From: Patellaria atrata CBS 101060
Lineage: Eukaryota; Ascomycota; Dothideomycetes; Patellariales; Patellariaceae
Direction: 5' to 3'
Length of the DNA: 64,000 bases
Assembly: GCA_010093705.1 (NCBI GenBank)
Contig: MU006102.1
Location: 371,947-435,946, forward strand
The translations under genes and the position numbers were made by a program. The notes beneath the pieces were generated by a model, which saw only the letters and a list, made by a program, of their open reading frames with translations, did not search any database and was not told where the DNA came from. Positions 11,129 to 15,598 of the stretch are shown here, piece by piece; position 1 is the stretch's first letter, and every line of letters begins with the position of its first letter.

Positions 11129-12522
11129 ATGTCCCGACCTCCTCCTCCGCCGCAACTACATCCTCCAAATACCAGTCCAACTCCTTCCGCCATGGCCGAA
11201 ACTCAACATGCACCGAGACCTCAGTTATTCACTGCCCATCGTCGTCTTCCCCAACAAGGATATCGACTTCCTCCTTTGACCATTCCAGCTTTGACACAGT
11301 CCGAAAATCAATACGGTCAACCAGCGGGTCAAACTCTCCCTGGCATTCATTCCGCTCCTCCTGCTCGGCCATTACCTCGACAACAGCTTCCTCATGCTGC
11401 ACCGGTCGAAAAACTTCTGGGGACCAACCCATACACTCCTCCAAGATCCGAAAGTGCCCTTTCACCACAGCAATTTGCACATCCTCAATCCCCAAGATCT
11501 GCTATAGAATGGCAACCGCAACGAAGAGGGGAGCGGCATCCTTTTGAAGAACCTAGACCGCCTCCTAATCAAGAGTCCGCATTCCTATCACCCATCGAAG
11601 GCCAGAGAAAGCTCTCCTATGCACCTCTACCTTCCCCGAATTATACGCCAAATTTTCCCGGCAGCAATGCACCCTATCGTGGTTCTTCAAGTATTCAACG
11701 TGAACCGGCTATCCCTCCTTATGCTCCACCTCCACCGTCATATCGTGATCCCGCTCCAATAGCTCCACCTAGGGCAGCACCTCAACAACCCCAGCAACGG
11801 CACTCGACAGAGTCAGAGTGAGTTTGATCTATTCCCTGCGTGATATTTTTCCCTAATCAAAGTTTAGGCCGTATTTGTATCGGCTTACTGTCCGACAACA
11901 ACCGATTGCTGCTAGAGCTTGCGGTTTCGGTGAGCGAGATCGTCGAGTGATCGATCCGCCTCCAATTATCCAACTTACGGTAACTGACAAGAAAACCGGA
12001 GTACCGGATACGGATGAACTCAGGTATTCACTTAATGTCATTCATTGCACCTTATGGAATGAACATGGCACCCACGAAGAAACCGCTCTTATGCAGCCTG
12101 ACAGACGTACGACACGGAGACTCATGGGCCAACTCGTAGCATCTCCATCCGTTGCGAAGGACGAGCATGATGTCGAAGGATGCTTCTTTTGCTTTCCGGA
12201 TCTCTCATGCCGCACGCACGGCAGGTATCGGTTACGTTTCGTGATGATCAGGATTGACCCGTCGAATTTGATTGTAGGGGACGTGTCACCAATTTTAGCG
12301 GATGTGATGAGTGACGTGTTCACGGTATATACGGCCAAAGATTTTCCGGGGATGCGGCCCAGCAGTGCGCTTACCAGAGCATTGAAGCTGCAGGGATGCA
12401 ATATCCAAGTCAAGAAAGGCAACGAGAAGTCACTGGCAGCACGCAAGAGAGCCAAATCACCCGAGGAGGCTGAGGGTGAGGAAGACGATACGGACCCGAA
12501 TAAAGCAAAGCGTAGGCGTTAA
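11129..12522 (+). CDS. velC: Velvet-domain regulator, VelC type
   Basis: Two exons, 11129-11817 and 11868-12522, split by a 50-bp intron (GTGAGT, TTTAG), giving 447 residues. The start is the ATG at 11129, the first in the open frame. Residues 1-230 are proline- and serine-rich and look disordered. The velvet domain begins at the splice junction: YRLTVRQQP, ARACGFGERDRR, DPPPIIQL, then LMGQLVASP, CFFCFPDLSCRTHGRYRLRF and FTVYTAKDFPGMRPSS. The exact wording ACGFGERDRRVIDPPPI and the KDFPGMRPSS ending fit VelC better than VelB or VosA. The tail is lysine- and acid-rich with a basic KAKRRR end, a possible nuclear signal. Velvet proteins are NF-kappaB-like DNA-binding factors that form dimers and control sporulation and secondary metabolism; VelC is linked to sexual development in other ascomycetes. 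The target set here is unknown. Confidence 0.92.
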
Positions 12523-13458: not shown

Positions 13459-15598
13459 ATGAAATATGTTCTTGTCTCCGGAGGTAAGTGGCGTCCGAGA
13501 CATATCCTATTTCGTCTTCAATTGTCCTAATGCAGACGTGTACAGGTGTTATTAGCGGTGTTGGGAAAGGCATCATTGGTAAGAATATTGTCCCCCAAGC
13601 GGCTAGTCGCGTCATGGTGGAGAGCTTTCCAGTCTGATCTCAACGCGTCACAGCCTCTTCTACCGGCTTGCTACTCAAGACCACCGGTCTCAAGATAAGT
13701 TTTTCCCCTTTGATCAATGCACAATGTGCTTTTTATCCTTCGGACAATTACTGATATTCCTTGCACGTATCCTCCATCAAAGTAGACCCCTACATCAATA
13801 TCGATGCGGGGACTATGAACCCCAAAGAGTGAGACACAACATCTCATCTGCATAATTCAAGCATCACTAACTTTCTACGTAGACATGGGGAGGTTTTTGT
13901 TCTTGACGACGGCGGTGAGGTTGATCTGGACCTTGGGAACTACGAGAGATATCTCAACATTACCTTGACCCGTGAAAACAATATTACCACCGGAAAGATC
14001 TACAAACATGTTATTGAGCGAGAACGGAAAGGTGACTACCTTGGAAAAACCGTACAGGTGGTTCCACATGTCACAGATGCTATCCAGGAATGGATAGAAC
14101 GAGTCGCAAAGTTACCCGTAGATGACACAAAGGAAGAACCGGACGTGTGTAGTAGGTTATCTCGCTCAAAACTATAAGCAACAAAATTAATAACAGTAAC
14201 TCTTTCAGTTATCGAGTTAGGAGGAACGGTCGGCGATATCGAGAGTATGCCATTCGTTGAGGCTATGACACAGCTGCGGAGGCGTGCAGGGAAGAACAAC
14301 TTCATACAGATTCACGTATCTTACATACCTCTCATCAATGGGGAACAGAAGACAAAACCCACACAGCAGGCGATCAAGATGGTACGAAGCGCTGGTTTAA
14401 TTCCGGACCTGGTAAGTGCTTGGTTGGCATCACCCATACCCACTTCTAACGTGGACCACAGATCGCATGTCGCTGCGAGGTACCACTAGAACCATCCACA
14501 GTCGACAAGCTCGCACGGTTCTGTCAGGTTGAACTCGAACAAGTGGTCGTGGTGCGTGATATGCCGTCTATTTATCAAGTACCTGTCCTTTTGGAAGAGC
14601 AGGGACTGGTTCCTCTCCTTGCTGATGTCCTCAAACTTGGTGACATGGAACTATCGAAATCATTAATAGCCAAGGGAGCAAACATTTGGCATCAATGGAA
14701 GGCTCTAACCATCAAGGACACTCGATTTCTGGATCCAGTAAACATCGTCTTAGTGGGCAAATACACCGAATTACACGATTCATACTTGAGCGTCATTAAA
14801 TCCTTAGAGCATTCGGCAATGCGATGCAGACGCGCACTAAAGCTTATTTGGGTTGACTCCGAGCATCTCGAACTAAAGACGCAAGAGAAAGAACCCGCAA
14901 ATTATCATAAAGCATGGCACGATGTATGCACAGCCGACGGTATCCTTGTCCCAGGCGGGTTCGGTTATCGGGGTACCGAAGGTATGATGGCGGCGGCTAA
15001 GAGGGCTCGCGAAAACGGCACACCGTACCTCGGCATTTGTCTCGGCATGCAGATAGCCGTCATCGAGTACGCTCGAAACTTGTGTGGCATCACGGACGCA
15101 TCATCTGAGGAGTTTCGCGAGGCACCGAGTGACAACAAGGTTATCGTGTTCATGCCCGAAATCGACAAGGAGACCATGGGTGGTACTATGCGTCTCGGTC
15201 GTCGTCCTACCATCTGGCAGGAAGGTTCTGAGTGGAGCAAACTTCGCGCTCTGTATGGGCAACAGAAAGAAATTCATGAGCGACATCGTCATCGGTATGA
15301 GGTCAATCCTAAGTATATCGAAAAACTGTCACAGGCGGGCCTCAACTTTGTCGGCAAGGACGATAAAGGCGAGCGTATGGAGATTATTGAACTTAAGAAT
15401 CATCCTTGGTTTGTGGGTGTGCAATATCATCCGGAATACTTGAGTAGAGTGCTGGATCCGAGCAGACCGTACCTTGGATTCGTTGCGGCGAGTGCGAAGT
15501 GCTTGGACGAGATCACGAAGCAGATGGGATGGAAGAAGGATGGGCTTGTTAATGGTACCAATGGTGTTAACGGCGCCGATGACGGTACTCACTTCTGA
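13459..15598 (+). CDS. URA7: CTP synthase
   Basis: Seven exons: 13459-13483, 13546-13578, 13654-13694, 13767-13828, 13883-14151, 14209-14411, 14462-15598; 589 residues, the usual length. It makes CTP from UTP, ATP and glutamine. The N-terminal synthase domain shows [18 protein letters not shown] (P-loop), [31 protein letters not shown] and [14 protein letters not shown]. The C-terminal class I glutaminase domain shows [16 protein letters not shown] with the nucleophile near Cys404, and QYHPEY with His534/Glu536. Six introns crowd the first third, a layout often seen in this gene. Intron 3 appears to be AT-AC (13695-13766): with it, exon 3 to exon 4 reads [12 protein letters not shown], exactly the family sequence. 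GT-AG alternatives in the same place stay in frame but delete conserved residues including the lysine of SIK. Confidence 0.95.
13695..13766 (+). other. Probable AT-AC intron (intron 3 of CTP synthase)
   Basis: The 72-bp interval starts ATAAGTTTTT right after the AAG codon and ends TTCCTTGCAC right before GTATCC. An ATTACTGATA branch-like sequence lies 12-22 bases before the end. The donor is a normal U2 donor with A in place of G, not the U12 donor ATATCCTT, so it would be a U2-type AT-AC intron. The other five introns of this gene are GT-AG. Confidence 0.7.

Follow-up and report, generated by a model that had tools for sequence, protein, structure and literature searches.

The window, the whole 64-kb stretch of DNA analyzed here (C14:371947-435946), carries a CTP synthase gene on the forward strand at positions 13459-15598. 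Seven exons (13459-13483, 13546-13578, 13654-13694, 13767-13828, 13883-14151, 14209-14411, and 14462-15598) are separated by six introns (13484-13545, 13579-13653, 13695-13766, 13829-13882, 14152-14208, and 14412-14461), and the joined exons comprise 1770 nt that encode a product of 589 aa with one terminal stop and no frame error. The five best PDB matches of this product were CTP synthases (E values from 1.2e-233 to 7.7e-229), which we take to be the enzymes of budding yeast. The Pfam domain CTP_synth_N was recognized with 402.6 bits, and the GATase domain was found in the last exon. When the genome (28.3 Mb in 46 contigs) was searched with the CTP_synth_N profile, two matches were obtained, both inside this gene, which is therefore the sole CTP synthase locus found. 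A velvet-domain reading frame (11857-12519; PF11754, 208 bits) lies directly upstream on the same strand. This neighbor, the best protein matches, and the shortness of the introns suggest that the genome is that of a filamentous ascomycete.

Five of the six introns have GT-AG ends, and each of the five has G at position +5. Intron 3 (13695-13766; 72 nt, phase 0 between Lys33 and Val34) has AT-AC ends. It reads ATAAGTTTTTCCCC...GGACAATTACTGATATTCCTTGCAC and is flanked by AAG on the 5' side and GTA on the 3' side, giving AAG/ATAAGT...CTGAT...TTGCAC/GTA. The 5' splice site AAG/ATAAGT occupies 13692-13700. A branch-site-like CTGAT, the sole CTRAY motif of the intron, is located at 13751-13755, and its A (13754) lies 12 nt from the intron end. 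The same distance was found in introns 4 and 6, and the range was 12-16 nt in the four GT-AG introns with a CTRAY motif (intron 5 has none). The 3' splice site CAC (13764-13766) contains the first AC that follows the branch A, with AC dinucleotides in and around the intron starting at 13721, 13744, 13750, 13765, and 13786. Translation through a retained intron would reach an in-frame TGA at 13752-13754. The intron ATAAGT...CAC that restores the frame of a seven-exon gene, as proposed in the sequence-only reading, was thus recovered with the same coordinates and lengths.

Every removal of 30 nt or more that kept the frame and left no stop was enumerated, with donors allowed from 13654 to 13774 and ends up to 13828. 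The resulting 2374 splices were ranked by alignment score against one PDB sequence. The top 12 were all 72-nt placements around one junction. Splice-like ends were present in only two of them, namely AT-AC (13695-13766, score 352) and GT-AT (13699-13770, score 355); the 11 placements other than AT-AC had non-spliceosomal ends or GT-AT. No GT and AG sites that preserve the protein were found at intron 3.

Canonical GT-AG splices do exist in this region, and the enzyme could in principle be made from one of them without its SSIK segment. The sequence-only reading named the donors at 13687 and 13699 with an end at 13782 as the best GT-AG options. Both splices are open and in frame (581 and 585 aa, respectively) and canonical at both ends, and a further in-frame splice at 13726-13782 (594 aa) had been overlooked. 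An ab initio scan restricted to GT-AG introns chose 13687-13782 in this region. The Pfam scores for CTP_synth_N, however, were 387.0 bits for 13699-13782, 375.8 bits for 13687-13782, and 388.8 bits for 13726-13782, a loss of 14-27 bits for the three GT-AG alternatives relative to the AT-AC product. As the dinucleotide AG is absent from 13700-13780, the in-frame TGA cannot be removed by an AG-ended splice without loss of the SSIK codons and with them the conserved lysine of the SIKxDPY motif, in agreement with the earlier expectation that these alternatives strip conserved residues. The SSIK lysine probably aligns with an active-site lysine of bacterial CTP synthase. This loss would affect the sole CTP synthase found in the genome. 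The GT-AG acceptor is also separated from the branch A by 28 nt, compared with the 12-16 nt of the four CTRAY-bearing GT-AG introns, and we regard the use of a canonical GT-AG pair at this place as very unlikely.

The second splice-like placement, at 13699-13770 (GTTTTT...ACGTAT), had not been noticed in the sequence-only reading. It could represent a genuine GT-AT intron; alternatively, it could be an intron of the GT-AG type in which the T at 13770 replaces a G by sequencing error or strain variation, a single base change being sufficient to produce GT-AG. Its product, GLKITSIKVDPY, is open and 589 aa long, its alignment score is the highest of the 2374 splices, and its Pfam score (402.5 bits) ties with that of the AT-AC product. 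Across the junction, the sequence in the five best PDB rows is GLKVTSIKIDPY. At residues 34-35, the AT-AC splice gives Val-Ser, the GT-AT splice gives Ile-Thr, and the five PDB rows have Val-Thr, so that Thr35 of the GT-AT product is the residue of the PDB rows and the AT-AC product differs slightly from them. The statement that AT-AC splicing keeps every family residue is accordingly a little too strong. A contig scan for relatives of CTP synthase recovered prokaryotic loci only, and the viral scan recovered none. Among 17 prokaryotic loci obtained from 23 stretches, three lacked a match to the motif and were set aside; in the remaining 14 readable relatives, position 34 was V in 12 and I in two, which argues against Ile34, and position 35 was variable. 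As all 14 carry MNPKEHGE, which was the search pattern, they do not represent an unbiased sample. The protein fit leaves AT-AC and GT-AT undivided, and it is the splice signals that decide for AT-AC.

Five U1-like snRNA copies were found among 41 scored candidates of 383, all below the Rfam cut-off and all with the 5' end ATACTTACCTTC. These genes are dispersed (contigs C3, C4, C8, C3, and C11), and their bodies differ around the common 5' end. A variant U1 matching the A at +1 of intron 3 was sought among the five copies; none of them had such a 5' end. Eight of the nine positions of AAG/ATAAGT pair with the U1 5' end, and the only mismatch is A at +1; the donor is thus complementary to U1 beyond its first base and has G at +5. 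The GT-AT donor forms four of nine pairs and lacks the G at +5 that each of the five GT-AG introns has, and its predicted duplex energy is -2.5 kcal/mol versus -4.3 kcal/mol for the AT-AC donor. The rival donors of intron 3 taken together form 3-5 of nine pairs, with energies of -0.4 to -2.8 kcal/mol. The five GT-AG donors of the gene range from -5.3 to -13.9 kcal/mol and are all stronger than the AT-AC donor. Two of these five donors pair with U1 at only five of nine positions, so that a low number of pairs is not enough in itself to dismiss every rival donor. The GTTTTT donor did not occur in a set of 46 introns predicted ab initio, a set that omits the introns of CTP synthase and is partly contaminated (other end pairs gave 18-39 clusters).

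The arrangement of signals was compared with shuffled versions of intron 3. A shuffle was scored as positive if any of the 12 protein-compatible placements combined a U1 match at +2 to +6 (TAAGT) and a CTRAY at the usual distance with AC or AG as its last two bases. Of 200,000 shuffles of each kind, one dinucleotide shuffle and three mononucleotide shuffles had the signals in register. The motifs are of a general nature, although the criterion was chosen only once intron 3 had been seen. If the GT-AT placement were used, including the variant with a misread 13770, the presence of ATAAGT and CAC in register, each four bases before the corresponding end, would have to be a coincidence of this order. 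We therefore consider splicing at 13699-13770 to be unlikely, and AT-AC is again the preferred placement.

Apart from its terminal bases, intron 3 resembles an ordinary GT-AG intron in sequence, AAG/(G)TAAGT...CTGAT...CA(G). The AT and AC letters could thus be assembly or sequencing errors in a GT-AG intron at the same place. Such an origin would require two independent errors that hit precisely the first and last bases and turn them into just the alternative pair that is known to function, while the rest of the CTP synthase coding sequence contains no frame error; it is highly improbable.

The AT-AC ends are also compatible with a U12-type (minor) intron. The U12-type donor is RTATCCTT, and that of intron 3 is ATAAGTTT; ATATCC is absent from 13690-13790. 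The U12-type branch site is TTCCTTRAY, located about 10-15 nt from the intron end. TTCCTTA is absent from intron 3, and TTCCTTGCAC is present but its A falls in the terminal AC. The claim that the donor is U2-like rather than U12-like is supported by these absences, the eight of nine U1 pairs, and the major-class CTGAT branch site at the usual distance. U1, U4, and U6 snRNAs were found in the genome. Searches of the genome for U11, U12, and U4atac returned none, but they lacked a positive control and do not prove absence: in the control genomes, the U11 and U12 searches matched nothing, and U4atac matched only an archaeon below the cut-off. The U6atac search gave one match of 27.3 bits (cut-off of 33) on a U6-like gene that scored 59.8 bits as U6. 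A survey of more than 3000 genomes describes Ascomycota and Basidiomycota as having no convincing minor introns (PMC10639083). The U12-type reading was rejected on the donor and branch motifs together with the snRNA searches, which found no U11, U12, or U4atac but lacked a positive control, and its probability is close to negligible.

Several observations were made on the U6 genes. The canonical U6 gene (ATACAGAGAAGATTAGCATGGCCCCTG; C1:675328-675383 and beyond) appears to be split by an mRNA-type intron (GTAAGT...CTAAC...TTAG) before CACTAAGGATGACACGC; mRNA-type introns are known in fungal U6 genes. The second, U6-like gene (C1:639983-640079) is intronless and diverged and lies 35 kb from the canonical one. 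Two bases are missing from its ACAGAGAAG, its internal stem-loop is altered though still pairable by eye, a TATA-like stretch precedes it, and a run of nine Ts is present at its end. Cofolding with the U4 of the genome was less favorable for the U6-like gene (-53.6 kcal/mol) than for the canonical U6 after splicing (-61.1 kcal/mol). The U6-like gene may be a variant snRNA or a processed pseudogene. A weak match to the animal mir-10 family at the U6-like locus on C1 (L004, 434-486; 30.3 bits with a cut-off of 47.5) is most likely a chance hairpin.

The genome was examined for further introns of this kind. The strict pattern AG/ATAAGT..CTRAY..YAC/G occurred at 12 places and at 17 in the reversed control. 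The GT-AG analogue of the pattern occurred at 36 places versus 14 in the reversed control, which indicates that such a pattern test is able to see a real class. By coding score, CTP synthase was the only one of the 12 places that combined a closed intron with two coding-like flanks. Among the remaining 11, a long open frame encloses one (L022), another had no acceptor that passed (L021), and the weaker flank of the other nine scored at most 2.7, compared with 5.8 for CTP synthase. An ab initio scan of 264 kb (3076 bases of N) did not place AT-AC above other end pairs; outside the GT-AG candidates, six coding-flanked AT-AC candidates were counted, compared with 3-12 in the other non-GT-AG classes. 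The pattern test covers strong donors alone and the ab initio scan about 1% of the genome; in the parts covered, there was no sign of a wider AT-AC class and no other convincing AT-AC intron.

Taken together, intron 3 of the sole CTP synthase gene found is very likely a U2-type (type II) AT-AC intron, and the transcript is, to the same high degree of likelihood, spliced at the AT-AC ends. The testable parts of the sequence-only reading, which had called it a probable U2-type AT-AC intron, hold for the protein-forced junction, the donor, and the branch site. The intron would probably be removed by the major spliceosome. The ordinary U1 snRNP would recognize AAG/ATAAGT at every position except the first intron base, and U2 would recognize the CTGAT branch site. 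The major spliceosome would then join Lys33 to Val34 at the first AC past the branch point, with A...C in place of G...G as the matched pair of first and last nucleotides. The ends of intron 3 may have been derived from GT-AG by paired changes.

A regulatory role can be imagined, in which the AT-AC intron acts as a deliberate brake on the sole CTP synthase found. The weak first base would limit splicing, retention would expose the TGA at the branch site, and the diverged U6-like gene might favor the donor. The U6-like AAAAAGACAGA can pair with positions +5 to +10 of intron 3 (GUUUUU) by six pairs in a row, including one G-U, whereas the canonical U6 forms only two pairs in a row there; the five GT-AG introns of CTP synthase form at most three in a row with the U6-like variant. 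As GUUUUU is a low-complexity run of U, this pairing may well be due to chance, and we consider the brake very improbable.

If confirmed by reads, intron 3 would provide a clean natural case of a fungus that probably lacks a minor spliceosome and yet retains an AT-AC intron, here in a gene that is presumably essential. If the reading is true, the major spliceosome of such a fungus would handle A...C ends reliably. Gene callers limited to GT-AG would mis-annotate CTP synthase and drop the conserved lysine, as the GT-AG-only scan did here. No new mechanism is involved. U2-type AT-AC introns and fungal AT-AC junctions have already been reported. Our literature search found no paper on an AT-AC intron in CTP synthase.

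Intron 3 is best compared with the U2-type AT-AC introns of sodium-channel genes. One study reports that the removal of the AT-AC intron 21 of SCN4A is U2-dependent and needs the major-type spliceosome, that the sodium-channel U2-type AT-AC introns carry G at +5, and that their conversion from U12-type introns has been proposed (PMC2831892). Splicing of a U2-type AT-AC intron has also been described in an Arabidopsis reporter (PMC5473141). Intron 3 of CTP synthase shares the AT-AC ends and the G at +5 with the sodium-channel introns. It differs in being a 72-nt intron of a fungal housekeeping gene, with predicted splicing, in a genome where the searches for U11, U12, and U4atac (run without a positive control) found none. 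With U12-type AT-AC introns, it has the terminal dinucleotides in common, whereas the donor and branch motifs differ and the corresponding machinery was not detected in the genome.

For annotated genes, it is reasonable to call AT-AC introns very rare in ascomycetes, and they are described as rarer in fungi than in animals and plants (PMC7072748), but they are not unprecedented in RNA-seq data. AT-AC ends were found at 69 of 14,305 junctions in Trichoderma longibrachiatum, where the distance from the branch A to the intron end peaked at 11-14 (PMC4324775). In human fungal pathogens, their share was 0.09-5.19% depending on the species (PMC6176087). In Fusarium graminearum, AT-AC is one of the other non-canonical types that together account for 0.31% of introns, and seven genes with non-canonical sites were confirmed by Sanger sequencing (PMC3577648). 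The terminal dinucleotides of intron 3 are the same as those of the junctions in these data, which likewise include filamentous ascomycetes. The fungal junctions rest on reads, whereas intron 3 of CTP synthase rests on protein conservation and splice signals.
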